From positions 1-64,000 of the forward strand of contig NZ_MVQB01000060.1 in NCBI RefSeq assembly GCF_002067035.1: 64,000 bases of DNA, in the 5' to 3' direction. Below, piece by piece: positions 2,484 to 40,555 of this stretch. The translations under genes and the position numbers were made by a program. Under the pieces are notes generated by a model that worked only from the letters and a program-made list of their open reading frames with translations, did not search any database and was not told where the DNA came from. The stretch's first letter is position 1, and the number at the start of each line of letters is the position of its first letter. This DNA comes from Methanoregula sp. PtaB.Bin085. GTDB lineage: Archaea; Halobacteriota; Methanomicrobia; Methanomicrobiales; Methanospirillaceae.

Positions 2484-5400
2484 ATGAAGATTCAGCAAGG
2501 TGTTCATACGCAGGAAATTCAACCAGGCAATATTATCAAAGGTTCTCTCTGGCCGGAACCAATTGAGATTAAATCGATAAATAAAACTGGAAATTTTGTT
2601 CATATCGTTGGAGCCACGACGGTTTCAAAAAAACATATCGATCAGATAATCCCGGTTTCAGCAATTGATTCATTCGTAGTATTGGGAAAGGAATGCAATT
2701 GCTGTGAAGAGCCCCTCAAAGTTTTTCTTGCCCTTGAAACACTCCGCTATCGTTATGCATCAATGTATGATCCCCTCCTTGCGATGAATACATCAAAAGT
2801 CGATCCGCTCCCTCACCAGATCGAAGCTGTCTATGGTTATGTCCTGAAACTTCCTAGAATACGTTTCCTTATCGCAGATGACCCTGGTGCCGGGAAAACC
2901 ATCATGGCCGGTCTCATCATAAAAGAACTTAAATTGAGAAATCAGGCAAACCGAATTCTCATTGTTGCCCCGGGGCATCTTAAAGATCAATGGAGACGGG
3001 AACTTCTGGAGCGGTTCAAAGAACACTTCACTCTCATAGACCGGAGCATTCTTGATGCTCATTTTGGAGAGAATGCCTGGGAGCGTGAGAACCAGATTAT
3101 CACATCGATTGATTTTGCGAAACGAGAGGAAATTCTTCCCACAATAGCCTCAACACGGTTTGATTTGATCATTGTTGATGAAGCTCACAAGATGAGCGCA
3201 TACAAGTATGGCGATGATACCAAGAAGACCGATCGCTATCAGATGGGTGAGACATTATCCCGCATTACTGAGCACATGCTATTCCTCACGGCAACTCCTC
3301 ACCGGGGAGACCCGGAGAATTTCAGGCTGTTTCTTGATCTCCTTGAACCGGGATTCTTTGCAACGAATGACATGCTTAATGCATCCATTCGGGGAAAAGA
3401 TAATCCCCTGTTCATCAGGAGGGTGAAAGAGGATCTCAAAGATTTCGAGGGAAAGCCACTCTTCCTCCCCCGCCATGTGAGGACCCAGCAATTTAATCTC
3501 GGGCGGGATTCACAGGATGAGATGCGGCTCTATAATGAGTTGTCGCGATATGTTAATACCGAATATAACAAGGTCCTGAGTAAGGATAAAAAACGGAATG
3601 TTGCCTTTGCTTTGGTAATTTTGCAGCGCCGCCTCGCTTCCAGTACATTTGCCCTCCTCCGGTCTCTCGAACGAAGAAAAAAACGGCTGGAAGAATTGCT
3701 CGAAGGAGCCCAAGAAAAATTGAAGGCACCAAATCTTGCCTCTGATCTGGACGCACTGGAGGAGTTAAGTGAGGAAGATCGCTGGAAAGAGGAGGAAATC
3801 TGGGAGACCCTCAGTGTCGCTGAGAACCGGGAGGATCTTCGGAAAGAGATCGGCATTATTGATCAGATGATCTCCCACTCGAAGACCATCATCCAGCGAG
3901 AAGATGAAATAAAATTGAGGGAGTTGCGCGATGCCCTCCAACGATTGAGTTCCACTTTCCCAAATAAACCTGACCGGAAGATCCTTATCTTTACCGAATC
4001 GCGGGATACCCTCGATTATCTGGAGAAAAAGATCAGGGAGTGGGGTTATTCTGTTAATGTGATTCATGGTGGAATGCGGCTCGATGACAGGATAAATGCT
4101 GAGAAGGTTTTCAAGAATGAGACCGAGGTGATGGTCGCCACCGAAGCGGCAGGAGAAGGTATCAACCTGCAGTTCTGTCACATGATGATCAATTATGATA
4201 TTCCCTGGAATCCGAACCGGCTTGAACAGCGGATGGGGCGTATTCACCGGTATGGCCAGCAGAAGGAAGTCTATGTTGTTAATCTGGTTGCCGAAGATAC
4301 CCGGGAAGGTCAGGTACTTGTTCGGCTGTTCGCCAAGCTCAAGGAAATCAAAGATGCAATGGGGAACGATAAGGTATTTGATGTGCTCTCGGAAGTGCTG
4401 TACAATACCAGCCTCACGCAACTGTTGATGGATGCTGCCGCGAATGCCCGTAATATCGACGAGATATTGAAAGACCTGGAATTCACCGTTGATGACGAGT
4501 ATATCAGCAAAGTAAAAGAAAATCTCGGGGAGACCCTTGCGACCCGGTTTATCGATTATACTCAAATAAAAGAGATGGCGCAGCGGGCCCGCGAGTATCG
4601 GTTGATCCCAGAGTACACCGAGAGTTATTTCAAGAAAGCTTTTGTTAAAACCGGCGGAACTCTCAAGGAACGGAAGAATGGCGGTCTGACGATTGATACC
4701 ATATCCGCTGACATTAAACGGATTTCAGAGCGGGATACCTTCAAGCGGGCCTTCGGGACGTTATTGAAACGGTATCCTTACATCGTATTTGACAAAGAGG
4801 TTGCATTTAAAAACTCGGAAGCAGAATTCGTATCCTTTGGTCATCCGCTTTTTGAGGCAGTCATGCTCTGGACCGAGGAAACATTTATCGAGGCACTTAG
4901 GAATGGTGCGACTTTTATTGATCCTGATGGCGTCCTTGATGGGTATATTCTCTACTTTGAAGGGGAGATCCGCGACGGCACCCTGGAAATTGCGGGCAAA
5001 CGACTCTTCGCATTTTTCACTGATGGGAAAAATGTCACACCGATTGCCTCCGATGTAATCTGGGATCTCGCCGAGAGCACCATTACAACTCCACAATGTG
5101 TCGAAGTTGAGGACCTCAAAAATCTGGTGTTCACGTATGCTCTCGAAAAGCTTCAGCACTATCAGCAGGAACTTTTAACGGAACGGAAACGGCAGGCATC
5201 GATCAAGACAAAATACGGCGAGAAGTCTCTTGAATATTTGATCTACAAACTCGAAGAGGAACTTATCACGCTGAACGACCGTAAGGAGCGGGGTGAAGCC
5301 GTTGATCTTCCGATCCGGAATAAGGAATTGCAGAAATCCGGGTATCAGCATGCCTTGGTTGATCTCAAAGACCTCATCAAGAAAGAGACAAGCCTGACGA

Positions 5401-5846
5401 TGTCTGCACCGCATTATGTCGGTATCATACGGGTGCAACCGCCCGAGCATATCGGTCGTGAGATGCGGAGCGATGCAGAAATCGAGCGGATTGGCATGAT
5501 ATTTGTCATTGAGCATGAACGCACAGCCGGGAGAATACCGGAGGATGTTTCGGTAGAAAATCTTGGGTTTGATATACGGTCAACAGCCAAAGACGGGAGC
5601 ATTCGGTATATCGAAGTGAAAGCCCGGGCTGAGATTGGTAAAGTCGCGCTCACGCAAAACGAATGGTTCAAAGCAAAACGGTTCAAGAATGATTATTACC
5701 TGTACGCAGTCATGAATGCCGGGTCGAATCCGCAGCTCTATATCATCCAGAACCCGGTTGAACGAATCAAGGCGGAAGAGCGGGTTGATGTCGTGAGGTA
5801 CATGATTGCTTTTGAGGAGATTCAGAAAGCTGGAGGAATACAATGA
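2484..5846 (+). CDS. SNF2-type DEAH helicase with C-terminal DUF3883
   Basis: A 1120-aa superfamily 2 ATPase. Walker A is DPGAGKT near residue 132, the DEAH box (VDEAH) is near residue 231, and motif VI (EQRMGRIHRYGQ) is near residue 580. These are SNF2/RapA-type double-stranded DNA translocase features. A coiled-coil insertion lies around residues 390-500. The last about 110 residues match DUF3883, a restriction-endonuclease-like domain common in defence helicases (motif YIEVKAR). It overlaps the methyltransferase gene by ATGA, so the two are translationally coupled. In DISARM-like modules such helicases act with a methyltransferase to recognise foreign DNA. Composition is AT-richer than the viral-like cassette next to it. 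Family call firm; exact defence class inferred. Confidence 0.9.
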   Translation: MKIQQGVHTQEIQPGNIIKGSLWPEPIEIKSINKTGNFVHIVGATTVSKKHIDQIIPVSAIDSFVVLGKECNCCEEPLKVFLALETLRYRYASMYDPLLAMNTSKVDPLPHQIEAVYGYVLKLPRIRFLIADDPGAGKTIMAGLIIKELKLRNQANRILIVAPGHLKDQWRRELLERFKEHFTLIDRSILDAHFGENAWERENQIITSIDFAKREEILPTIASTRFDLIIVDEAHKMSAYKYGDDTKKTDRYQMGETLSRITEHMLFLTATPHRGDPENFRLFLDLLEPGFFATNDMLNASIRGKDNPLFIRRVKEDLKDFEGKPLFLPRHVRTQQFNLGRDSQDEMRLYNELSRYVNTEYNKVLSKDKKRNVAFALVILQRRLASSTFALLRSLERRKKRLEELLEGAQEKLKAPNLASDLDALEELSEEDRWKEEEIWETLSVAENREDLRKEIGIIDQMISHSKTIIQREDEIKLRELRDALQRLSSTFPNKPDRKILIFTESRDTLDYLEKKIREWGYSVNVIHGGMRLDDRINAEKVFKNETEVMVATEAAGEGINLQFCHMMINYDIPWNPNRLEQRMGRIHRYGQQKEVYVVNLVAEDTREGQVLVRLFAKLKEIKDAMGNDKVFDVLSEVLYNTSLTQLLMDAAANARNIDEILKDLEFTVDDEYISKVKENLGETLATRFIDYTQIKEMAQRAREYRLIPEYTESYFKKAFVKTGGTLKERKNGGLTIDTISADIKRISERDTFKRAFGTLLKRYPYIVFDKEVAFKNSEAEFVSFGHPLFEAVMLWTEETFIEALRNGATFIDPDGVLDGYILYFEGEIRDGTLEIAGKRLFAFFTDGKNVTPIASDVIWDLAESTITTPQCVEVEDLKNLVFTYALEKLQHYQQELLTERKRQASIKTKYGEKSLEYLIYKLEEELITLNDRKERGEAVDLPIRNKELQKSGYQHALVDLKDLIKKETSLTMSAPHYVGIIRVQPPEHIGREMRSDAEIERIGMIFVIEHERTAGRIPEDVSVENLGFDIRSTAKDGSIRYIEVKARAEIGKVALTQNEWFKAKRFKNDYYLYAVMNAGSNPQLYIIQNPVERIKAEERVDVVRYMIAFEEIQKAGGIQ

Positions 5847-8602
5847 CCACGGACAAACGCTTTATCGAAGAATCTTTCCCGGTCAAAGAAGTCGGACTTG
5901 AATCTGCTCGTGAGAAATCTATTCGACATGGCCACATCTCAACGCTGCATATTTGGTGGGCTCGCCGTCCCCTTGCATCATCTCGTGCGACTGCTTACGC
6001 GGCGCTTGTTCCTCCCAAAAAAGGGGAATCTGAACAGAAGAAACAAAGAGATTTTATTATTGAACTCTCGAAATGGGAAAACTCCAACAATCATCCACTT
6101 CTCGAAAAAGCCAGAGAAGATATCTTCAAGGCTAACGGGGGTATGCCGCCAAAAGTACTAGATCCTTTTGGAGGAGGGGGATCTATACCTCTCGAAACAT
6201 TACGACTTGGTTGTGAAACATATTCTAACGATTACAACCCCGTTGCGGTATTAATTCAGAAGTGTACGCTTGAATATCCACAAAAATATGGATATCAATC
6301 ACACAAAGACAATTGGGGCGAACTTTCAGGAAGAACTACAAATCCCCTTATTGAAGATGTAAAAAAATGGGGAAACTGGGTACTTCAAGAGACGATGAAT
6401 GAGATTGGGAAATTTTATCCCCCCGATCCTGATGGATCTGTTCCTATTGGTTATATTTGGGCTAGGACGGCCTCTTGCCAGAACCCATCGTGTGGTGCGG
6501 AAATCCCATTATTAAGACAATATTGGCTTTGCAAAAAAGAGCAAAAACAGATTGCATTGTTTCCTTTTGGTGTTAAAGGAAAAATCCAATTCAAAATCGT
6601 TGGTGACGGTTATGAGGATATACCTGATGGATTCGATCCAGATCAAGGAACGATCTCTGGGGCAGTGGTGTCTTGTCCAATTTGTGGTTCAACTATAGAT
6701 GCTAAATCCAATCGAAAAGTATTCCAAAACCAAACCTCACAAGAAAGAATGCTATGTATTATTTCTCATAAAAAAGGCGCACCCGGAAGGACTTACAGGC
6801 TTCCAACGAAAAAGGATTTGGATATTTTTAAAGAATCGGGTTTGTATTTAAGTAAAAAAGAGGAGGAATTAAGAATTAAATGGGGAATGGAAGCAGTCCC
6901 CGATGAACCTATTCATACACCGGACCATAGAGAATACCAACCGGGAAATTTATTGTATAATTTTACTCCTGTGGTTTTATACGGATTGACAAAATGGCGA
7001 GATCTGTTTAATATTCGTCAAAAATTAGCAATGGTTACTTTTTCAGAGAAAATCCGTGAATCCTTCAAATTAATGGAGAAAAACAATTTAGATCCGGAGT
7101 ATTCCAAAGCAATTCTCACATATCTTGATTTTATTTTAGCTCGTCAGCTTGATTACAATTCGTCTCTCTGTGTTTGGGTACCGGTGGGAGAATTTGTGGC
7201 TCATACATTCGGTCGTCAAGCTCTTCCAATGGTGTGGGACTATTTCGAGTTATACCCAGATAGTAATGCTACTGGTGATTGGAATTCCGCAATGGAATGG
7301 ATTTTAAGAGTAATTGAGCATACTTCATCGGTATCAAAAGAATTTGCAACGATTACACAATTCTCCGCAACGGCGTTGGAATATCCTGAAAATCACTTCG
7401 ATGCTATTTTCACAGACCCACCTTACTATGATAATGTTCCGTACGCGGACCTCTCTGATTTTTTTTACGTATGGTCAAAGCGAGTAATCGGAGACCAATA
7501 TCCAGAACTATTTTCGACTCCCGCAACTCCAAAATCCAACGAAATTATTGCTGAGTTACCCTTGTTAAGAGGATTGAATAAAGAAAAAGCTTCGAAAAAT
7601 CTGAGTGGTATTAAGACCAAAGAACATTTTGAATCAATGCTAAAGAGAGCATTTAAAGAAATTTTCCGCGTATTAAAACCGAACGGCATTGCAATTATTG
7701 TTTACGCTCATAAATCCACAGAAGGGTGGGAAACACTCATTAATTCTTTACTAGACTCTGGATTGATTGTTTCAGGAGCATGGCCAATCAATACCGAAAG
7801 AGCAGGCCGCCTCCGTTCACATGATTCTGCTGCTCTCGCCTCTTCAATCTATATCGTCGCCCGTAAAATGGAACGGCAGCCAACCGGATTTTACAATAAC
7901 GTGAAAGAAGAACTCAAAACCCATCTGAATAAAAAGCTCGAACGACTTTGGCACGAAGGGATTTCAGGAGCAGACTTCTTCATCGCAGCTATCGGTTCCG
8001 CCATCGAGGTTTTTGGAAAATATGAGCAGGTAATGGATTACGAGGGCAACGTTGTCAGAGCCGATCGGCTACTCCTGGATGTTCGTAAAATCGCGACCGA
8101 TTATGCCGTGAGACAGATCCTCCACAATGGATTCGCTGGCGAGATATCGGACATGGCTCGGCTCTATGTTCTTTGGCGATGGAACTATTCTGAGGCAAGA
8201 GTGCCATTCGATGAAGCCCGCAAACTCGGGCAGAGCTGTGGTATCGATATCTCGCATGAATGGAGCCATACCGGATTTATCAAAAAGGATAAGGAGTTTG
8301 TCCGGTTGCTCGGTCCGCAGGAGAGGAAACTGGAGGACTTGGAAGGATCGAAGGATATGATTGATGTCCTCCACCAGGTCCTCCTCCTCTGGGAAAGAAG
8401 TAAACGGGATGAAATGATCAAAGTCTTACAACAGACAGGGTATGGTAAAAGTGAAGCATTCTATCGTGTGGCGCAGGCAATTTCTGAATCCTTACCAAAT
8501 GAAAGCAAGGAGAAGAAATTGCTGGAAGGCTTCACTGCCGGACGTGAGCGGTTGACAGAAGAGGTAAGAAGAGAGGGAAGACAAGCGAGGCTGGATGTAT
8601 GA
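5843..8602 (+). CDS. DUF1156 DNA methyltransferase
   Basis: A 919-aa protein. The N terminus (about residues 8-55, ESFPVKEVGLESAREKSIRH, then an IWWARRPLASSR stretch) is the DUF1156 signature. SAM-binding motif I is DPFGGGG at residues 107-113. The catalytic motif DPPY of amino-methyltransferases is near residue 525 within FTDPPYYDNVPY. Cysteine pairs (CQNPSCG with a later C, and CPIC) between the two motifs suggest a zinc-binding insertion, which accounts for the unusual distance. It probably methylates an exocyclic amine (N6-A or N4-C) and marks self DNA for the module. The start overlaps the helicase stop by ATGA. The middle third is clearly AT-richer than its ends. Confidence 0.9.
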   Translation: MTTDKRFIEESFPVKEVGLESAREKSIRHGHISTLHIWWARRPLASSRATAYAALVPPKKGESEQKKQRDFIIELSKWENSNNHPLLEKAREDIFKANGGMPPKVLDPFGGGGSIPLETLRLGCETYSNDYNPVAVLIQKCTLEYPQKYGYQSHKDNWGELSGRTTNPLIEDVKKWGNWVLQETMNEIGKFYPPDPDGSVPIGYIWARTASCQNPSCGAEIPLLRQYWLCKKEQKQIALFPFGVKGKIQFKIVGDGYEDIPDGFDPDQGTISGAVVSCPICGSTIDAKSNRKVFQNQTSQERMLCIISHKKGAPGRTYRLPTKKDLDIFKESGLYLSKKEEELRIKWGMEAVPDEPIHTPDHREYQPGNLLYNFTPVVLYGLTKWRDLFNIRQKLAMVTFSEKIRESFKLMEKNNLDPEYSKAILTYLDFILARQLDYNSSLCVWVPVGEFVAHTFGRQALPMVWDYFELYPDSNATGDWNSAMEWILRVIEHTSSVSKEFATITQFSATALEYPENHFDAIFTDPPYYDNVPYADLSDFFYVWSKRVIGDQYPELFSTPATPKSNEIIAELPLLRGLNKEKASKNLSGIKTKEHFESMLKRAFKEIFRVLKPNGIAIIVYAHKSTEGWETLINSLLDSGLIVSGAWPINTERAGRLRSHDSAALASSIYIVARKMERQPTGFYNNVKEELKTHLNKKLERLWHEGISGADFFIAAIGSAIEVFGKYEQVMDYEGNVVRADRLLLDVRKIATDYAVRQILHNGFAGEISDMARLYVLWRWNYSEARVPFDEARKLGQSCGIDISHEWSHTGFIKKDKEFVRLLGPQERKLEDLEGSKDMIDVLHQVLLLWERSKRDEMIKVLQQTGYGKSEAFYRVAQAISESLPNESKEKKLLEGFTAGRERLTEEVRREGRQARLDV

Positions 8603-8642
8603 TATCAGAGAAAAATTATTGGATGAGAGGGCAGGGTAAACT

Positions 8643-11180
8643 ATGAAGGCATTTCATACCGTAGCGGTGCCCCACAAAGATATTCTCGACGGCAGACTCA
8701 CCATGGATGTTTTTGCTGCGGATCTGTGGGAAGTCAGCAAGAACCGGGGACCAGATGAATATCGCGATGCAAAGAGATTCTTCGAGCATACATATCGCAC
8801 AGAAGGACTCTCTAACCTCCTCGATGTTGTTCAGAAACGCCTCGAAGGGAAAGGTGGAGATCCCGTTATCCAGATTCAGACTCCTTTTGGTGGCGGCAAA
8901 ACCCATACTCTCATTGCACTCTATCATAATGCAAAAATCTGGGATTCAAAAACGATTGTCATCGTTGGAACAGCATTAAGTACTGATACCACGCTTTGGG
9001 GAGCACTCGAACAACAACTCACCGGAAAGATTACAAAATGCAAAGGACAGACTGCCCCTGGCAGAGAAGTGTTAAGAGATTTATTGGATTCTCACCAGCC
9101 GGTTCTCATCCTTATGGATGAGGTCCTCGAGTACGTTACCAAGGCTGCTGGCGTGAAAGTCGGGGACAGTACACTTGCATCACAAAGCATTGCGTTCATG
9201 CAGGAACTGAGTGAATGCGCCGGGATATGTGAAAAGGTCTGTCTGGCCGTCACCCTCCCTGCAAGTATTCTCGAACATTATGATGAGAAAGCCGAAACCC
9301 TCTATCAGCAATTACAAAAAGTATCCGGCCGCGTTGAAAAAATCTATACACCCGTCGAAGAACACGAGATAACAATGATTATCCGTCGCCGCCTGTTCTC
9401 AACTATCGACGATAAATACGCAAAAAAAGTCGTAAAGGAATTTATGGATTATGCCGATAAGGAGGGTATCCTTCCCGCTGGTGTCCAGCCCAGCGAGTAC
9501 CGGGACCGCTTCGTTGCTTCTTACCCGTTTATGCCGGAAGTAATCGATGTACTTTATCACAAGTGGGGAAGCTTCCCGACATTCCAGCGGACCCGGGGTG
9601 TGCTTCGCCTTCTCTCCCTCGTAATTTATGCTATCAAAGGTCTGAACAAACCTTACATCAGCCTTGCAGATTTTGATCTATCCAACCAGGAAATACGCCA
9701 GGAATTACTCAAACATATTGGAGCGGAATACAACAGCGTACTCGCAGCAGATATTACCGACGCACACGCAGGAGCAAAACTTGTCGATTCACAAATCGGC
9801 AATGCATATCAGGGATTCCAGTTAGGAAGAAGAACGGCGACAACAATTTTTATGTATTCATTCTCAGGAGGGGCAGAAAGAGGGACAACCGTTGGGGAAA
9901 TCAAACGCTCTGCAACAACTATGGACAATCCTTCCAGCGTGATTGTTGTAGCTGTTGACTTACTGAAAGGAAAATTATTCTACCTCCAGAACATCGGCGA
10001 TAAATACTATTTCAAAAATCAGCCAAATATCAATCGAATAATTCTCTCAAAGATCGACAATATCAAGGAGTCGGAAATTGTTGAAGCGGAAAAGGAGAAC
10101 CTTAAAGCCAATCTCAAAGGCGGGAAATTCCGAATATCGCTGTGGACAGAAAACTCTGCTGATATCCCTGATACTGATGAACTGAAACTGGTTATTCTTC
10201 GGAAAGAAAATAAGAAAACCATTGAGGATATCATTAAGAACAAAGGCGGGACACCCCGAGTCTATCGCAACACGCTCTTCTTCCTGTGTCCGCTAGAAAG
10301 TGAACGTCCTGTTTATCTCCAAACTTTATCAAGAAGCATCGCCTACGCCCAGGTTGAAGGAGATAAGGAACTGGGGATATCTGAAGAGCAACGGCGTGAA
10401 ATTAGCAAAGAACACAAAAAATTCCAAGATACTGTCAAAGAGTGTGTGCAGCGGCTCTATCGTATAGTGTGGGTTCCCGGAAAGGAGCCATCTGATCTCG
10501 GCATTCCAACATTTGGAGAGAACAGGGGATTGGATGCCAAGATCTTTGATGATCTGCGGACCGCTGGGGAGATCCTTGAACGGACAACCCCGCTGTTCCT
10601 TAAAACAAAATATCTCTCAAAGAATGAATTCGTTTCAACCGAACAAATCTATCAATCAACACTCAAAACTCCTGGTGAACCCCGGTTTGTGAATAAATCA
10701 ATCCTTGAGAATGCAATCTCTGAAGGAGTTCAGAATGGAATCTTCGGTCTAGGAATTCTTGAGAATAATACACCAAAATGTGAATATTTCAGGAAAACGC
10801 CCTCAGTCTCCTTATCGGCAAATGAAGTTATTATCGTAGAGGGTCTTTGCAGGGAGGCTCGGGAAGAACCACCTGCGGATGTGTGGAAGGATACCGGATC
10901 GCGGGGCGAAGGAGCAACGGGAGGGGCAACCGTAAAGGGCGGAAAAGAGAGTGGGGAATCCCAGACCTCATTAACAGACATGAAAAACCTCCGACTATCA
11001 TTCACAATCCCAATGGGAAAAGTGTCCAACATCCTCGGAGTTATTAATTTCCTGACAAATCGGTTCAAGAACGTGGATATCATCATCAATGCACAGGACG
11101 GCTCACTTTCCGAACAGGATTATGAAAATAAAATTAAAGAGGCGTTTGAGCAAATTGGGGTTGAATTAAGAGAAGAATAA
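8643..11180 (+). CDS. DUF499 AAA+ ATPase of the defence module
   Basis: An 845-aa protein. Walker A, PFGGGKTHT, is at residues 81-89, and a Walker B-like LILMDEV is near residue 157. This is the pattern of DUF499 ATPases, which regularly occur with DUF1156 methyltransferases and large helicases in archaeal and bacterial defence islands. A low-complexity Gly/Glu linker around residues 740-775 separates a C-terminal domain of about 70 residues. The gene lies 40 bp after the methyltransferase, behind AGGGCAGGGT. Its stop is two bases from the stop of the convergent SLATT gene. The ATPase role is certain from motifs; whether it loads or regulates the helicase or methyltransferase is unknown. Confidence 0.88.
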   Translation: MKAFHTVAVPHKDILDGRLTMDVFAADLWEVSKNRGPDEYRDAKRFFEHTYRTEGLSNLLDVVQKRLEGKGGDPVIQIQTPFGGGKTHTLIALYHNAKIWDSKTIVIVGTALSTDTTLWGALEQQLTGKITKCKGQTAPGREVLRDLLDSHQPVLILMDEVLEYVTKAAGVKVGDSTLASQSIAFMQELSECAGICEKVCLAVTLPASILEHYDEKAETLYQQLQKVSGRVEKIYTPVEEHEITMIIRRRLFSTIDDKYAKKVVKEFMDYADKEGILPAGVQPSEYRDRFVASYPFMPEVIDVLYHKWGSFPTFQRTRGVLRLLSLVIYAIKGLNKPYISLADFDLSNQEIRQELLKHIGAEYNSVLAADITDAHAGAKLVDSQIGNAYQGFQLGRRTATTIFMYSFSGGAERGTTVGEIKRSATTMDNPSSVIVVAVDLLKGKLFYLQNIGDKYYFKNQPNINRIILSKIDNIKESEIVEAEKENLKANLKGGKFRISLWTENSADIPDTDELKLVILRKENKKTIEDIIKNKGGTPRVYRNTLFFLCPLESERPVYLQTLSRSIAYAQVEGDKELGISEEQRREISKEHKKFQDTVKECVQRLYRIVWVPGKEPSDLGIPTFGENRGLDAKIFDDLRTAGEILERTTPLFLKTKYLSKNEFVSTEQIYQSTLKTPGEPRFVNKSILENAISEGVQNGIFGLGILENNTPKCEYFRKTPSVSLSANEVIIVEGLCREAREEPPADVWKDTGSRGEGATGGATVKGGKESGESQTSLTDMKNLRLSFTIPMGKVSNILGVINFLTNRFKNVDIIINAQDGSLSEQDYENKIKEAFEQIGVELREE

Positions 11181-15774: not shown

Positions 15775-17214
15775 ATGATTGGCATCTTCATCAGTAGCGT
15801 GCAGAAGGAATTCAGCGATGAACGCCGTGAAGTCCGTGAATTCATTCACAATGATCCTCTTCTGAAACAGTTCTTTCATACATTCATATTCGAGGACCTC
15901 CCTGCTGCCGATCATCGGCCGGATGAAGTCTATCTTGATGAAGTGAATCGGTGCACAATATATCTGGGAATTTACGGAACGCACTATGGACCAGAGGACG
16001 CAGAAGGACTTTCCCCGACTGAAAAGGAATTTAATCGCGCAACCGAACAATGCAAGCACCGGCTGATTTTCGTGCAGGGTTCCGATGACGCAGGAAGGCA
16101 CGACAAGATGTCTGCTCTTATCCGGAAAGCAGCAGGGCAGGTAATACGGCGACGTTTCACGGATATTTCAGATCTGAAAACTCAGGTCTATGCGGCGCTT
16201 GTCCAATACCTCAGCGAGAATGGCCTTCTGCGACACAAGCCTTTTGACGAAGCGATATGTAACGGTGCATCGATCGACGATATTTCTCCGGAAAAAATCG
16301 CCTGGTTCCTCTCGGTCTCAAAGAAGGAGCGGAAATTTCCCCTCCGGGCAGGCACACCGGTAGAGGTGGTACTGTCTCACTTAAATCTGCTTGATGGATC
16401 ACAGCCTACGCATGCAGCGGTACTTCTCTTCGGGAAAAACAGTCACCATTTTCTCCCATCAGCGGAGATCAAATGCCTGAGCTTCCGGGGCACAAAGATC
16501 GAGAAACCAATTCCCTCCTATCAGATTTACACTGGGACGCTCTTCGATCAGGTGGATGATGCTGCAGATTTTGTACTTTCAAAACTCGATCGCCGCGTTC
16601 CTGCACGTGATGAAACACCGGTGAGTGATACCGACTATGAGATCCCGGTCCCTGCTATTCATGAGGCAATTGTGAATGCTGTTGTCCACCGGGATTACAC
16701 ATCCAAGGCAGCAGTTCAGGTTATGGTTTTCACTGACCGAGTAGAAGTATGGAATCCTGGAGCCTTGCCCTCGGACCTGACACCCGACAGCCTCAAGGCA
16801 GAACATCCCTCAATTCCACACAACCCGCTCATTGCCCATCCACTGTATTTAACGCATTATATCGAGAAAGCCGGTACCGGAACGCTCGATATAATCACGT
16901 ATTGCAAGGAGGCGGGTCTTCCAGAGCCAGGTTTCGAACAGCGCGGAGGACAGTTCGTTGTCACACTTTGGAGAGACTGGCTGACAGATGCGATAATGAA
17001 AGAATTAGGGATCAGTGCCCGGCAAAAAATCGCCATAGAAATTGTAAGAGACACGGGTCGTGTGAATAGTACTGAGTATTCCACTCTCGCGAAAATCTCT
17101 CGGCAGACCGCGTTCCGTGACCTGAACGATCTTGTTCATAAAGGGATCCTCGAAAAGCAGGGAATAACCGGAAAGGGTACTTTTTACACGTTAAGCAAAC
17201 GACTCAGAAAGTAA
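15775..17214 (+). CDS. DUF4062 and AlbA/Schlafen-type ATP-binding protein
   Basis: A 479-aa protein. Residues 1-90 (IFISSVQKEFSDERREVREF, later YLGIYGTHYG) are DUF4062, a TIR- or SLOG-like fold seen in defence and signalling proteins. Residues about 190-400 form a GHKL-like ATP-binding module with the N-box HEAIVNAVVHRDY and the G motif AGTGTLDII, typical of AlbA_2/Schlafen-type transcription-regulator ATPases. The last about 70 residues look like a winged helix (STLAKISRQTAFRDLNDLVHKGIL). It stands alone between the methyltransferase and a tandem repeat, and its last codons match the first unit of that repeat. Probably a regulator or defence sensor; target unknown. Confidence 0.75.
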   Translation: MIGIFISSVQKEFSDERREVREFIHNDPLLKQFFHTFIFEDLPAADHRPDEVYLDEVNRCTIYLGIYGTHYGPEDAEGLSPTEKEFNRATEQCKHRLIFVQGSDDAGRHDKMSALIRKAAGQVIRRRFTDISDLKTQVYAALVQYLSENGLLRHKPFDEAICNGASIDDISPEKIAWFLSVSKKERKFPLRAGTPVEVVLSHLNLLDGSQPTHAAVLLFGKNSHHFLPSAEIKCLSFRGTKIEKPIPSYQIYTGTLFDQVDDAADFVLSKLDRRVPARDETPVSDTDYEIPVPAIHEAIVNAVVHRDYTSKAAVQVMVFTDRVEVWNPGALPSDLTPDSLKAEHPSIPHNPLIAHPLYLTHYIEKAGTGTLDIITYCKEAGLPEPGFEQRGGQFVVTLWRDWLTDAIMKELGISARQKIAIEIVRDTGRVNSTEYSTLAKISRQTAFRDLNDLVHKGILEKQGITGKGTFYTLSKRLRK

Positions 17215-23818: not shown

Positions 23819-24550
23819 ATGGTAAAATTTTATACAACTAATGGCGTTTCAGCTGCCTTAGACGAGTTAGTGAAGAATGCTCGTAAGCAGTTATTTCTAA
23901 TAAGTCCGTATCTTCAAATCTCGAAAAATTTGAGAAGCTTGATTAAAGAGGCAGACCGTCAGCCATTAATCGATATTAAGGTAGTTTGTCGGACAGACAG
24001 CAAATGGTCTCCCGATGATATTAGTTTTCTTCAAGACCTTGAAAACGCGAAAATCAAATCGATTGAAGGTCTCCATGCAAAAATATATCTTAACGAATCT
24101 ACGGCGATAATCACTTCAATGAATCTGTACATGCATTCCCAGCAAAATAACAAAGAAGTAGGTCTGATTTTCGACGCTGCGGAAGATAAGGAAATCTACG
24201 ACAAAATACTCAAAGAAGTTACACGATTAATCGAAGATGCTGATAAAATCCAATATAAAGTTACATACGACACTGAACAAACGAAACCTGCAAAGGCAGA
24301 ACCAGCCAAAGAAAAGCCAGTAATAAAACCCCTCCCCAAATCAGAAAAAAATGTTGGTTTTTGTATTCGGTGTCACGCACAGATGGAACTAAATCCGGAT
24401 AAACCATTGTGCTCAAAATGCTATCCGGTCTGGGCAAAATATTCTGACAGAACCTACCCAGAGAAATATTGTCATGTATGTGGAAAAGAATCGAAACAAT
24501 CCGTTGAAAAACCCGTCTGCTATACCTGTTATAAAAAAATGTATAAGTAA
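23819..24550 (+). CDS. PLD-like protein with two C-terminal zinc ribbons
   Basis: A 243-aa protein with GAGGTG shortly before the ATG. Residues 1-145 form a single phospholipase-D-type domain with HxK in GLHAKIYLN (about residue 90) and downstream SMNLY. Such domains include nucleases (Nuc, BfiI type) as well as lipases. After a Lys/Pro/Glu linker come two four-cysteine modules: CIRC...CSKC and CHVC...CYTC. The zinc ribbons suggest nucleic-acid binding, so a nuclease is likelier than a lipid enzyme. It is AT-rich, next to the integrase and convergent with it. DISARM uses a PLD protein (DrmC), but this gene is 12 kb from the helicase module. Confidence 0.7.
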   Translation: MVKFYTTNGVSAALDELVKNARKQLFLISPYLQISKNLRSLIKEADRQPLIDIKVVCRTDSKWSPDDISFLQDLENAKIKSIEGLHAKIYLNESTAIITSMNLYMHSQQNNKEVGLIFDAAEDKEIYDKILKEVTRLIEDADKIQYKVTYDTEQTKPAKAEPAKEKPVIKPLPKSEKNVGFCIRCHAQMELNPDKPLCSKCYPVWAKYSDRTYPEKYCHVCGKESKQSVEKPVCYTCYKKMYK

Positions 24551-35641: not shown

Positions 35642-38600
35642 ATGGTCCGATCGACAGAAATTATTGAAAAAATACAACACACCCTCTCAAAAGAGGATTG
35701 GCTCAGTGTTGAGGCTCCTGTTCTCGAATTAAAAGCCCAGCAGGTGCGAAAATCCCGGAAGATCCTTATCAGTCAGATCAATCAAATTATCATTGATACT
35801 GCACTTAAAAACGATAGACCCGGCATCCTTCTGGCCTTACCGGATATTCAGGGAAGTGAGATCGATGATCTCTTCTCACGGATTGTCCGTCAGTATATTT
35901 CATCGAAACGTGATAAGTGGTATACGATAATTTATTCACTCGCAGAAAAACTGGGTAAAAAAAGCAACCAGTCCCGCGTCTTCGCCATGGTTGCCCGTGA
36001 TCTTATCGATGCCGGGGTATCTGAAAAAGATCCGGATTTCATTGGAAATGGTATGGAAATCCTTGGCCATATCAGTTTCCGGAAATACCGGTCTGATATC
36101 ATGATAGATATCATCCCCCTTCTGATTGTCTGGGCTGTCACTATCCACGACAAGAAACTGCTTTGTACATCCCTTCGTCTGATCGGAGAGATCGGGGACA
36201 TTTCAAAACGATCCGTGCTTCATGCAGAGCTTTCCAAGGCTCTCGCGACCATCGCCATCCAGAAAAGAGACCGTACTGCATTCTTCTACAGTATCCAAAG
36301 CGCTGCCGAGATACACCAGAAGATCCGAAGGCAGACCTGCATTGCAGCCATCATTGAAAGAGGTGCAAAATCGCTCTTTGGTAAAGAGATGGCAGATATC
36401 CCCCAGTTTATTGATAATTTCGGGACAATTTCACCGGAAGCACAACTTGAGATTATCAGCGCACTGACTGCACAGCTCCTGGAACGAATAAAGGATAAGG
36501 AACAGATCGAGACCGTCCTACAGGCTATCTGCGGGAAAAGACCCTCCGCAACGGGGACAATCATCATTGATCTTTTAAAGAAAGCAGAACGTTCCGGGGA
36601 ACTCTGGTACCTTTCAACTGCACTTGATCTGCAACAGCATATCGGCGAAAGCAGATCCTATCCTCTGCGGGAAATGATCCATGCTGCAATCGCGGTTGCG
36701 ACGGCAACAGGCAATATGCAGGTCCTGAATGACCTGATACCGGTAATTGAAAAGAACAGCAGCATTGTCGGAATATCGAGAACCTACCTCCAGTTTTCCC
36801 AGATAATGCTCGCATCAGGAGATTTCGGATCAGCACTTCAATTATTTGGTAAAATCAGCCATGATACCGAAACTCATCCCCAGTATTCCGATATTCTCAC
36901 GCAGATCCTGAAAGGGGGATTCCGGGATGACAGTATACCTATCGTGGATAAAATTCTTCTTGCCAAACTCAACGAAACCACGGTCTCGGGAGCTGTGTAC
37001 CGGGCTGCTGTTGAAATTGCCAAGGAAGCCCCGTTTGAGGACATAGTCTCTCATATCCGCTCGTTCAATGATTTGATCGTCCTCCACCCGCGGCAAGATC
37101 ATCTCTTTTTTGAGTGTATCACGATTCTTGGTGACCGAGGCTTTCTCAATATTCATGATCCCGGTATTCTTATTCGTCTGGCAGAAGCAATTTTTGATCA
37201 AGGTATAAAGGAACGGGCTGTCTCATCAATTGTCATAAAGATTGCCAAGATTGGGGTTCAGATAAAAAACCGCGATTATCTGCAGCGGGCTGTCGGACTC
37301 ACCTGTGAGATTGACGGGCAGGAGACCCGCTCAGCAACCCTGAGCAGTATCATCGACGAAGCATCGCTGCTTGCAGCACAACAGGGAGATCTCGACCTCC
37401 TCCTCCGGATGCGGGCCTGGAGCAGCTCACTCCTCAAACAGGAACTTGCCGTTTACGCGATGGCTAACATTATTGACGGCGTTGTTAAATACGCAATTGA
37501 TAAAAAATCGTCCGATGCCCTCGAGGAAGCATATCTCATTGCACGAGAAATTAACGATCCCTCCCTGAAGGCACAGCTGTTCGAGCGGATCGCGGAATGT
37601 TTTGTCCGGATCGGATGTATAATCCTCAAAGAGCCCTCCACTTCTTCAGCTAAGGAAGATTTTGCATCAGCCAAGAGAGCCTTCTCCCGGGGTCTTGAGA
37701 TCATCAATCAGGATATCAAATCTCCTCAGGTTTCATTGAAAATTGCCGGCATTATCGATATAATAATAAACCATTCAAAGTCCAGCAGCAATCCCGATTT
37801 TATTATTCCACTAGCAATGTACACAGCGGAAATTCATAATACGTTCGAGAGGGATGCGATGATGTCGCGGATCATCTCAAGCCTTCAGACTGATATCATT
37901 CACCCGAGTTCTACCGATCCCTATGAGATCATGGCATACCTCCTCCAGAGAAGTGAAATGGCAAAGGTGGATCCCGACGTCATCGATCTGGTATCGCGTA
38001 TACTACGGATGATTGTCGATCCGTTTGTCAGGTTATCCGGCCTTGCCGGTCTCGCAGAGTCTGTAATCCAGCTGCAGGACCTCGCACAGGCAAAACCTGT
38101 TCTGGAAGAGATAAAAAACGGATTAAAAGATCTCCCTGCGGAATATCAGAAGATCCTCCTCCTTTCCGATCTGACAATCCTCTATTGCCGTATCGATACC
38201 GGAACAGCCTCAGAGTGTCTCAGGGAAGGAATACGGCGTCTTGAGGGGGTCGAGTATAACCGGGAAGCTCTTGCCCGCCGTCAGATTGTTTTTGCTATTG
38301 TCCGGCTTAACACTGTACTTCCCGAATCCCGCTGGGTGGATACTGCCCTGCAGGTGATCAGCAAGATAACCGATCCTATCGAATATATCAATTCCCTTAT
38401 CGCGGTTTATGGTATGATCCGAGAGGACCATGAGCGGGGAAACGAGATTCTTGGCTACATGACAGATGCCGTAGAAAAGATCGCATCGCCATATGAAAAG
38501 GTCTCCACACTTCTTGATATCATCCCGCTTGCGATCCAGAGCACCAATGGTGACACACCCTCAAAACTTCTGAAGAAGGCAGAGGTACTGACAAAAAAAA

Positions 38601-39205
38601 TCAACATCCAGTTCATTGCCGACAGGATGCGCGATAATATTGCACAAATCTATATTATGCTTGCACAAAACAATCCTGATAAGAAATACATTGACTCAGC
38701 AATCGCTGTCATCAGGAACATCGATGATGATAATCTCCGGCAGAATTACCTGACAAAGATCGGGTATCCGGAAACCTACGAGATCCCCCCGCAGTATGTC
38801 AAGATAAAAACTCTTTCGGAAAAAATGATCGCCGAGGGATTCCATCAGAACCAGGTAACAGTCCTGGAACGTCTGGTAATGACCGTTGCCGATCGTGGCC
38901 GGGAAGCCCTCTTCTTTTCAGAGCTCGCCATTTTTTTCAGAAAAGCAAAGGAAGAAAAGGTTGCATCACGGATGCTCCAGAATGCTGTCAGGGAAGCACG
39001 GATCATACGCCCGCTCTCGCGGCGATCCTATATCATGTGCGATATTGCCCTCAAACTCCATGCAGCAGGGTGTGTCCGCACAGCGCAGGATATCCTCGAT
39101 AATGCTATCGATGCAGCTACCAACATCAGGCAGTCTGCGCTCAGGGATGAAGTTTTTGATGAACTCGGCCTTGCAATCCGGATCATGCAGGAGATGGAGC
39201 AGTGA
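35642..39205 (+). CDS. Large all-helical repeat protein (HEAT/TPR-like solenoid)
   Basis: A 1187-aa protein. It is helical throughout, with repeated about 35-40-residue units of two amphipathic helices marked by patterns such as R-xx-A-xx-I-x-I-A and L-xx-I-A-x-A-x-x-I. No signal peptide, transmembrane segment, P-loop or zinc motif. Some units read like TPR (EEAYLIAREINDPSLKAQLF), others like HEAT. Such solenoids usually serve as protein-interaction scaffolds. The stop overlaps the acylphosphatase start (GTGA), so the two are co-translated. The start ATG at 35642 has no strong ribosome-binding site. Family not recognised. Confidence 0.75.
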   Translation: MVRSTEIIEKIQHTLSKEDWLSVEAPVLELKAQQVRKSRKILISQINQIIIDTALKNDRPGILLALPDIQGSEIDDLFSRIVRQYISSKRDKWYTIIYSLAEKLGKKSNQSRVFAMVARDLIDAGVSEKDPDFIGNGMEILGHISFRKYRSDIMIDIIPLLIVWAVTIHDKKLLCTSLRLIGEIGDISKRSVLHAELSKALATIAIQKRDRTAFFYSIQSAAEIHQKIRRQTCIAAIIERGAKSLFGKEMADIPQFIDNFGTISPEAQLEIISALTAQLLERIKDKEQIETVLQAICGKRPSATGTIIIDLLKKAERSGELWYLSTALDLQQHIGESRSYPLREMIHAAIAVATATGNMQVLNDLIPVIEKNSSIVGISRTYLQFSQIMLASGDFGSALQLFGKISHDTETHPQYSDILTQILKGGFRDDSIPIVDKILLAKLNETTVSGAVYRAAVEIAKEAPFEDIVSHIRSFNDLIVLHPRQDHLFFECITILGDRGFLNIHDPGILIRLAEAIFDQGIKERAVSSIVIKIAKIGVQIKNRDYLQRAVGLTCEIDGQETRSATLSSIIDEASLLAAQQGDLDLLLRMRAWSSSLLKQELAVYAMANIIDGVVKYAIDKKSSDALEEAYLIAREINDPSLKAQLFERIAECFVRIGCIILKEPSTSSAKEDFASAKRAFSRGLEIINQDIKSPQVSLKIAGIIDIIINHSKSSSNPDFIIPLAMYTAEIHNTFERDAMMSRIISSLQTDIIHPSSTDPYEIMAYLLQRSEMAKVDPDVIDLVSRILRMIVDPFVRLSGLAGLAESVIQLQDLAQAKPVLEEIKNGLKDLPAEYQKILLLSDLTILYCRIDTGTASECLREGIRRLEGVEYNREALARRQIVFAIVRLNTVLPESRWVDTALQVISKITDPIEYINSLIAVYGMIREDHERGNEILGYMTDAVEKIASPYEKVSTLLDIIPLAIQSTNGDTPSKLLKKAEVLTKKINIQFIADRMRDNIAQIYIMLAQNNPDKKYIDSAIAVIRNIDDDNLRQNYLTKIGYPETYEIPPQYVKIKTLSEKMIAEGFHQNQVTVLERLVMTVADRGREALFFSELAIFFRKAKEEKVASRMLQNAVREARIIRPLSRRSYIMCDIALKLHAAGCVRTAQDILDNAIDAATNIRQSALRDEVFDELGLAIRIMQEMEQ

Positions 39206-39495
39206 AAACCATAGAGATCACTATCTCCGGACGGGTTCAGAGAGTCGGATTCCGAGCATGTGTACGGAAGATTGCTGCTGATCTCTCTGTTACCGGTACC
39301 GTATTGAATCTTCCGGATGGCAGGGTACAAGTATTTGCCACTGGAGAATCCATGATACTTGAAAAATTCATCTCAATGCTCTATGGATGTCCGCGTGCGG
39401 TCATCCGTGATGTAAAACATACAGAAATCCTTCCAAGAACATTTGAAGGATTTTCTATTATAAAAAATGAAGACAGAATCAGTACTGAACTGTAA
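39202..39495 (+). CDS. acyP: Acylphosphatase
   Basis: A 97-aa protein starting with GTG at 39202 in a GTGA overlap. The signature GRVQRVGFR (Arg18) and the catalytic Asn in TGTVLNLPDGRVQV (Asn36) are both present. It hydrolyses acyl phosphates such as acetyl phosphate. Length is typical. It is coupled to the helical repeat protein and converges with the Cas1 homologue, overlapping it by 17 bp. Confidence 0.9.
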   Translation: MKTIEITISGRVQRVGFRACVRKIAADLSVTGTVLNLPDGRVQVFATGESMILEKFISMLYGCPRAVIRDVKHTEILPRTFEGFSIIKNEDRISTEL

Positions 39496-40555
39496 ATTCA
39501 CTGCCTTTCCGGATCGCATCCGCGAGATCTGACACCAGGTTATTGATTTTTTCAGTATTGATTGACAAGTGGAGCCGCCGGGTGATCTCTTGTATAAGAT
39601 CGTCAGAAAGCATGCATCTGTTTGGCGTCAGCTCATAATCCTCGCTGTTAAGACCTTCATTTACTCTCCGGAAGATAACGGAATCGACCATTCCGGGTCT
39701 GAAGGGATCGGCGAGATCATAAATTAGGCCGTTTTTTCCGTCATGCAGAAAACCTGCATCCGGATCGAGCCGGGCACCAAACGATGCTATAGTGCAGTTA
39801 CCTAACAGCAGTGCATATCCAAAGGAGAGCATGGCATTGACCGGATCTACGTAAGGCCGGGGGGTCCGACGCCTGAATCCCAGATCCGGCGGCAGACTGC
39901 GGGCCATTATTTCATAGTACATATCCGAGACCAGCCGGTGCAGGCGCCGGATTTCATCTATTTTGATGAGAAATGCGAACTCATCCCTGGACTTGAGGAG
40001 AAATTCCAGTTCACCCTCATAGAAAAGGTGAGTGTTTTTCAGCTGCTCTTCCTGTTCCATGAGGAGAATCCGCGCCTGGGCGGAGTTCTTCGCAAGTGCA
40101 GTAGCAAAGCGCTGGTGAGGAATCATTCTCTGAAGTTCGCAGAGTTCAGAAATATTCCGGTCACCAGAAGGGAGGATGGTACCGGCGGGCGTTCCATCAG
40201 CCTCGAAAAATGATATCAGAGCTCCGTGCCGGATCAAGTTCAACACGGTGGATGAGTGAATTGTGTGCCCCCCAACAATGAGGAGGTTTTTCACATCCGT
40301 TATGGGGTACTCCTCTATTGAATTTTTCTTATGGATGATCAGGGTTTTCGGAGTCGATTTGATATGGGCACCAAAACCGCTGACGGTAATCCACGGGTAC
40401 TCTTTCACAATCAACACCAAAAATGGTTCATCTGTTCTAATTACTACCACATATCGCCTGATTAAGCCATCGTTTTTTTCTGACTGCCGCTTCAAGAGAC
40501 CGCCGTGATTTCGGTGGATATAAACCGAATCAAGGGTCATATATACCGTTGTCAT
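39479..40555 (-). CDS. cas1: Stand-alone Cas1 homologue (Cas1-solo)
   Basis: A 358-aa protein with the Cas1 fold: N-terminal beta domain (IHKKNSIEEYPITDVKNLLI, GALISFFEADG) and C-terminal helical catalytic domain (RPYVDPVNAMLSFGYALLLG, LDPDAGFLHDGKNGLIYDLA, DPFRP). His271 and Asp280/Asp283 of the metal site are present, but the Glu expected about seven residues before the YY pair (213-214) is not (RLHRLVSDMYYE). No cas2, effector genes or repeat array lie nearby, and no PolB or terminal inverted repeats as in casposons. Stand-alone Cas1 groups are known in Methanomicrobiales. Start codons of this gene and the divergent ligase are only 24 bp apart. Confidence 0.85.
   Translation of the reverse strand: MTTVYMTLDSVYIHRNHGGLLKRQSEKNDGLIRRYVVVIRTDEPFLVLIVKEYPWITVSGFGAHIKSTPKTLIIHKKNSIEEYPITDVKNLLIVGGHTIHSSTVLNLIRHGALISFFEADGTPAGTILPSGDRNISELCELQRMIPHQRFATALAKNSAQARILLMEQEEQLKNTHLFYEGELEFLLKSRDEFAFLIKIDEIRRLHRLVSDMYYEIMARSLPPDLGFRRRTPRPYVDPVNAMLSFGYALLLGNCTIASFGARLDPDAGFLHDGKNGLIYDLADPFRPGMVDSVIFRRVNEGLNSEDYELTPNRCMLSDDLIQEITRRLHLSINTEKINNLVSDLADAIRKGSEFTVQY

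Follow-up and report, generated by a model that had tools for sequence, protein, structure and literature searches.

A helicase, methylase and ATPase locus of the Hma (Type-1 DUF499-centred BREX-Related) family in a methanogenic archaeon

Gene layout and family membership of the locus

Three intact open reading frames on the forward strand, hmaA, hmaB and hmaC, span positions 2484-11180 of the window, the whole 64,000-nucleotide stretch of DNA that was analysed (Table 1). As the first-pass annotation of this DNA had described, the three large genes are connected by an ATGA overlap and a short spacer: the ATGA at 5843-5846 is common to the hmaA stop and the hmaB start, and 40 bp separate hmaB from hmaC. 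There are no embedded genes between the hma genes of this operon. Homologue alignments show that the ATP, SAM and nuclease motifs of the three genes are conserved, and the intact frames together with these motifs place the three-gene module far beyond chance. The same contig (C60, ~157 kb) carries mcrA, which identifies the host as a methanogenic archaeon and indicates that the hma locus is not on a stray bacterial contig.

Table 1. Coordinates of the hma genes, their predicted domains and motifs, and neighbouring features in the window
Feature	Position	Strand	Description
hmaA	2484..5846	+	1120 aa; SNF2/RapA-like helicase, N-terminal SH3/Tudor-like barrel, predicted C-terminal PD-(D/E)XK nuclease domain
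hmaA small beta barrel (Tudor/SH3-like)	2526..2654	+	residues 15-57; AF2 strands 17-19, 27-35, 38-45, 51-57; pLDDT ~73-83
hmaA SNF2 motor	2799..4256	+	residues 106-591; Pfam; Walker A DDPGAGKT 132-139, DEAH 232-235
hmaA predicted PD-(D/E)XK nuclease domain	5475..5750	+	residues 998-1089; NOV_C; E1001, D1030, E1044, K1046
hmaB	5843..8602	+	919 aa; DUF1156, predicted DNA amino-methyltransferase
hmaB SAM-binding motif I VLDPFGGGG	6155..6181	+	residues 105-113; columns V105-F109 and G111-G113 invariant, 14 homologues
hmaB putative Zn site, candidate target-recognition region	6476..6685	+	four Cys in insert (C212, C217, C278, C281); invariant, 14 homologues
hmaB catalytic motif IV DPPYY	7415..7429	+	residues 525-529; invariant among homologues
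hmaC	8643..11180	+	845 aa; DUF499 AAA+ ATPase, BrxC-like, without HEPN domain
hmaC Walker A GGGKTH	8889..8906	+	residues 83-88; invariant, 16 sequences; Walker B DE159-160
Type IV CBASS operon, complete-looking	15001-11183	-	QueC, TGT, oligonucleotide cyclase, OGG, 2TM/SLATT effector
Dam-like methylase	15576-15055	-
DUF4062 / HATPase_c_4 protein	15775-17214	+	between primase-like gene and Dam
1033-aa protein	21409-18308	-	primase-helicase-like by eye, without family match
Integrase	25796-24558

The PADLOC models of HmaA, HmaB and HmaC match the three products near full length, with E values of 1.4e-200 (residues 81-1094), 1.9e-128 and 1.4e-121, respectively. Pfam assigns SNF2, Helicase_C and NOV_C (DUF3883; 4.6e-23) to HmaA, DUF1156 (3.2e-22) plus weak methylase matches to HmaB, and DUF499 (7.9e-37) to HmaC, which are the domains already named in the first-pass annotation. 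The module had been left unclassified there and the PADLOC matches give it a name. The name Hma, for helicase, methylase and ATPase, comes from Payne et al. in 2021, who found 1,638 instances in 26 phyla (PMC8565338). A 2026 study by Rakesh and Krishnan traced Hma to reports from 2013 and 2020 and gave it the new name Type-1 DUF499-centred BREX-Related (BR). It found the components to be homologous to BrxC, BrxXI and BrxHII of Type-3 BREX and a C-terminal active PD-(D/E)XK to be present on the helicase in 79% of taxa (PMC12839542). As confirmation of phage defence by the BR helicase component, that paper cites an experimental study (its ref. 112). The locus has the same three components, domain make-up and gene content as Hma / Type-1 BR, with no essential difference; no HEPN domain was found in HmaC, which at 845 aa is short and represents a recognised sub-variant without the N-terminal HEPN. 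The system type is already described, and the locus is a well preserved example of it and not an undescribed DISARM- or BREX-like module.

The locus also shares homologous components with three other systems. The ATPase, methylase and SNF2 helicase of Type-3 BREX (BrxC, PglXI, BrxHII, PglZ) are homologous to those of Hma, but the Type-3 BREX ATPase belongs to DUF6079 whereas that of Hma belongs to DUF499, and the Hma helicase adds a nuclease domain that looks active from its sequence. Neither PglZ nor BrxL had a match in the whole genome, with a positive search control in each case, in keeping with the earlier description of a methylation-linked, BREX-related defence-type module without either protein. 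BrxL is not part of all BREX types. DrmD of DISARM matches HmaA along almost the entire protein (PADLOC 2e-152), from which it follows that the two helicases are homologous; the score of HmaA against the NCBIfam DrmD model is 394.6 bits, below the 610-bit cut-off. DrmA and DrmB, which had also been reported as missing, were not recognised in the neighbouring genes scanned, where the Drm profiles match HmaA itself and, weakly (DrmC-like), a PLD protein at 23819. The single MZB/DUF1998 gene of the genome is located on another contig. The methylase and ATPase of Type-2 BR, a DUF499-DUF1156-PLD-helicase antiphage set, are homologous to those of the locus (NCBIfam NF042963 and NF042962, both sub-threshold), but all three Hma proteins score far below the NCBIfam cut-offs, and the N-terminal HKD nuclease of Type-2 BR is absent from HmaA, which keeps a Tudor-like barrel. 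No PLD/HKD match was obtained for HmaA with Pfam. The standalone DUF3780 gene of Type-2 BR had no match in the genome in a search whose control was also silent.

Domains and conserved residues of the Hma proteins

HmaA begins with a modelled four-stranded barrel that appears to match the N-terminal Tudor-like domain of the Hma / Type-1 BR helicase; an N-terminal Tudor is reported on BR helicases (PMC12839542). The motifs of the SNF2 motor are invariant across 14 homologues, and the best Foldseek match of the full-length model is RapA (4.7e-31). This RapA-wide fold match is compatible with the inactive REase and alpha+beta domain of Type-1 BR in the middle of the helicase, where the model is weak at residues 621-702. 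In the AF2 model of the C-terminal tail (pLDDT 73-90), a helix at 998-1014 is followed by strands at 1031-1034, 1040-1047 and 1054-1057, a helix at 1058-1070 and a strand at 1071-1077. This alpha-beta-beta-beta-alpha-beta order is that of the PD-(D/E)XK nuclease core; D1030 marks the beginning of the first strand, and E1044-x-K1046 falls within the second. The quartet is kept in the homologous loci: E1001 in each of the 29 that extend over this position, D1030 in 31 of 32, and both E1044 and K1046 in 32 of 32. Two systems from the same genus, only ~40% identical in the nuclease domain, are included in this conservation. A PDB sequence search with the tail gave no matches.

From the modelled fold and the conserved residues, the cutting domain of the module would be the DUF3883/NOV_C tail of HmaA, a predicted PD-(D/E)XK nuclease that fits the "additional C-terminal active REase" published for the helicases of Hma / Type-1 BR. 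The first-pass annotation had seen no obvious cutting component and had offered DUF3883 or the distant PLD protein at 23819 as candidates. The former proposal agrees with the predicted nuclease core and its conserved quartet, and a domain that is predicted and intact in HmaA replaces the missing cutter. The PLD protein was rejected: it is weakly DrmC-like and unrelated to the hma module, lies 12.6 kb away beside the integrase, and is without a homologue in any Hma locus that was compared. With the predicted cutter fused to the helicase, the module would need no unknown or distant nuclease, which removes a false lead.

The DPPY motif of HmaB points away from an m5C enzyme and towards an amino-methyltransferase (N6A or N4C), and the base modification is probably N6-adenine. 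Methylation to m5C was suggested for Hma (PMC8565338), but the DPPY motif speaks against this for HmaB. Published BR methyltransferases have a Zn finger in the insert that forms their TRD, and the four invariant cysteines in the HmaB insert are compatible with the TRD insert of the Type-1 BR methylase. For HmaC, the best four PDB matches of the model in Foldseek are all BrxC from Acinetobacter BREX, which supports the kinship with BREX independently of names; a PDB sequence search with HmaC gave no matches. The C-terminus of HmaC is modelled as beta-alpha-beta-alpha at 783-837 with a low pLDDT of ~52-63, where an RRM/ferredoxin-like domain is expected in Type-1 BR.

Homologous loci and the mobile neighbourhood

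With a helicase query, 32 homologous loci were recovered, which come from archaea and a wide range of bacterial phyla. The order A-B-C is found in every homologous locus where two or three of the genes are visible, including L042, which belongs to a different genus within the host's taxonomic order. The pairwise divergences of A, B and C correlate in the close set without the outlier L043 (Mantel r 0.73-0.85, p <= 0.0013). Of 60 related genomes, only 5 have an HmaC/DUF499 match, which in most cases is to a strongly diverged version, and this patchy occurrence is as expected for defence genes that move horizontally. In the genome of the same genus that carries a divergent hmaA (G005, L044 11166-14525), this gene is split into two ORFs of 581 and 470 aa, possibly by a frameshift or an assembly error.

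Relatives often carry at least 0.6 kb of extra gene-bearing sequence within the operon, between hmaA and hmaB in ~12 of 19 and between hmaB and hmaC in ~5 of 16. Loci with inserted genes include L002, L003, L007, L009, L011, L015, L016, L018, L022 and L023, and the inserted genes are often of toxin-antitoxin types (MNT/HepT, PIN, XisI, TumE, MazE) or encode OLD/PtuA-like ATPases. The regularity of this insertion pattern suggests addiction or guard genes. The first-pass annotation had held that its reading would fail if most genomes had the triple outside a defence setting. As far as the flanks were surveyed, defence genes of TA/OLD and other types are frequent within or beside the triple.

Directly downstream of the hma operon and convergent with it lies the CBASS operon, with 2 bp between its 3' end and the stop of hmaC. 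CBASS was rejected as a fixed partner of Hma, the CBASS genes of the window having no homologue in the other Hma loci compared. Upstream of the CBASS genes on the reverse strand are the Dam-like methylase and the gene for the 1033-aa protein. Of the 60 related genomes, 44 have matches to this protein, often several in one genome, and in relatives Dam directly follows its gene. The DUF4062 / HATPase_c_4 gene between the two in the window is found at the same place in L061; in most relatives the primase-like gene and Dam adjoin. The slot past Dam is occupied in sister loci by Dnd/Pbe phosphorothioation genes (L058), type I restriction (L061), a CBASS cyclase (L066), an RmrA-like gene (L063) or the divergent Hma (L044). 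The comparison is qualitative and covers L044 and nine further sister loci; some of the nine have no PADLOC match in the proteins scanned singly. The gene for the 1033-aa protein and the Dam gene after it make up a mobile-element backbone that is multi-copy across the genus and on which the hma and CBASS operons of the window also sit. Its slot after Dam is a candidate archaeal defence hotspot. Short direct repeats were considered as bounds of the element, and only unconvincing matches of 12-14 bp were obtained. Elsewhere in the window a solitary Cas1 gene (39479-40555, reverse strand) adjoins the gene for a 1187-aa protein (35642-39205) without a family match; no other cas genes were recognised among the neighbouring genes scanned around it.

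Proposed working of the module and its alternatives

The explanation that we consider probable is a complete Hma system (= Type-1 DUF499-centred BREX-Related) in a methanogenic archaeon, working by methylation, licensing and cutting. It builds on the family membership, the motifs, the topology of the nuclease domain, the gene order, the parallel divergence of the three proteins, the BrxC- and RapA-like folds and the mobile defence context. By analogy with the family, HmaB would methylate a target sequence of the host, most likely at adenine N6, and so mark self. HmaC, a BrxC-like AAA+ protein, would assemble on or scan the DNA and license or recruit the effector where the mark is missing. HmaA would translocate by its SNF2 motor and cut unmodified invader DNA with its own predicted C-terminal PD-(D/E)XK domain. 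Methylation of self, assembly of a complex, DNA cleavage and defence against viruses or plasmids would be the activities expected of such a family member.

BREX-type systems can block replication instead of cutting, and the outcome may therefore not be decided by the nuclease. In the main alternative, which we regard as unlikely, self would again be marked by methylation while a complex of the ATPase and helicase would block replication or, like RapA, strip RNA polymerase, and the PD-(D/E)XK domain would be accessory. Such exclusion without cleavage fits the closeness of the HmaA fold to RapA and of the HmaC fold to BrxC, and PMC13326643 describes that BREX restricts phage via replication inhibition, but the motor motifs of HmaA are no more strictly conserved than its nuclease quartet, also in systems of ~40% identity, and the genome has no match to PglZ, for which the nuclease role in BREX has been proposed. 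It is also conceivable, with a lower probability still, that HmaC and HmaA would sense infection and the nuclease would degrade host DNA so that the cell dies. The predicted helicase/nuclease of Sather et al. 2023 reportedly acts through abortive infection, and toxin-antitoxin genes are often embedded between the hma genes of relatives. However, a dedicated and always linked methyltransferase speaks for discrimination between self and non-self via modification, and HmaC here is without the HEPN suicide RNase of other members.

Two further readings have very little probability. Hma and the convergent CBASS, carried on one archaeal mobile element, might form a coordinated two-layer unit in which restriction would act first and suicide by the membrane effector would follow upon failure; this is highly improbable. 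The least probable reading of all is a module for epigenetic regulation or DNA repair with no role in defence. Regulatory roles can be played by SNF2/RapA-like motors and by solitary methylases, but the patchy, horizontal distribution, the position in a mobile-element defence slot beside CBASS and the retention of the nuclease residues by the homologues covering the domain all argue against it.

The Hma family is sparse in the order to which the host belongs, and the locus provides a clean archaeal example of it. The presence of two strongly diverged Hma versions in one genus offers a possible basis for testing the methylation motif and the roles of the nuclease.
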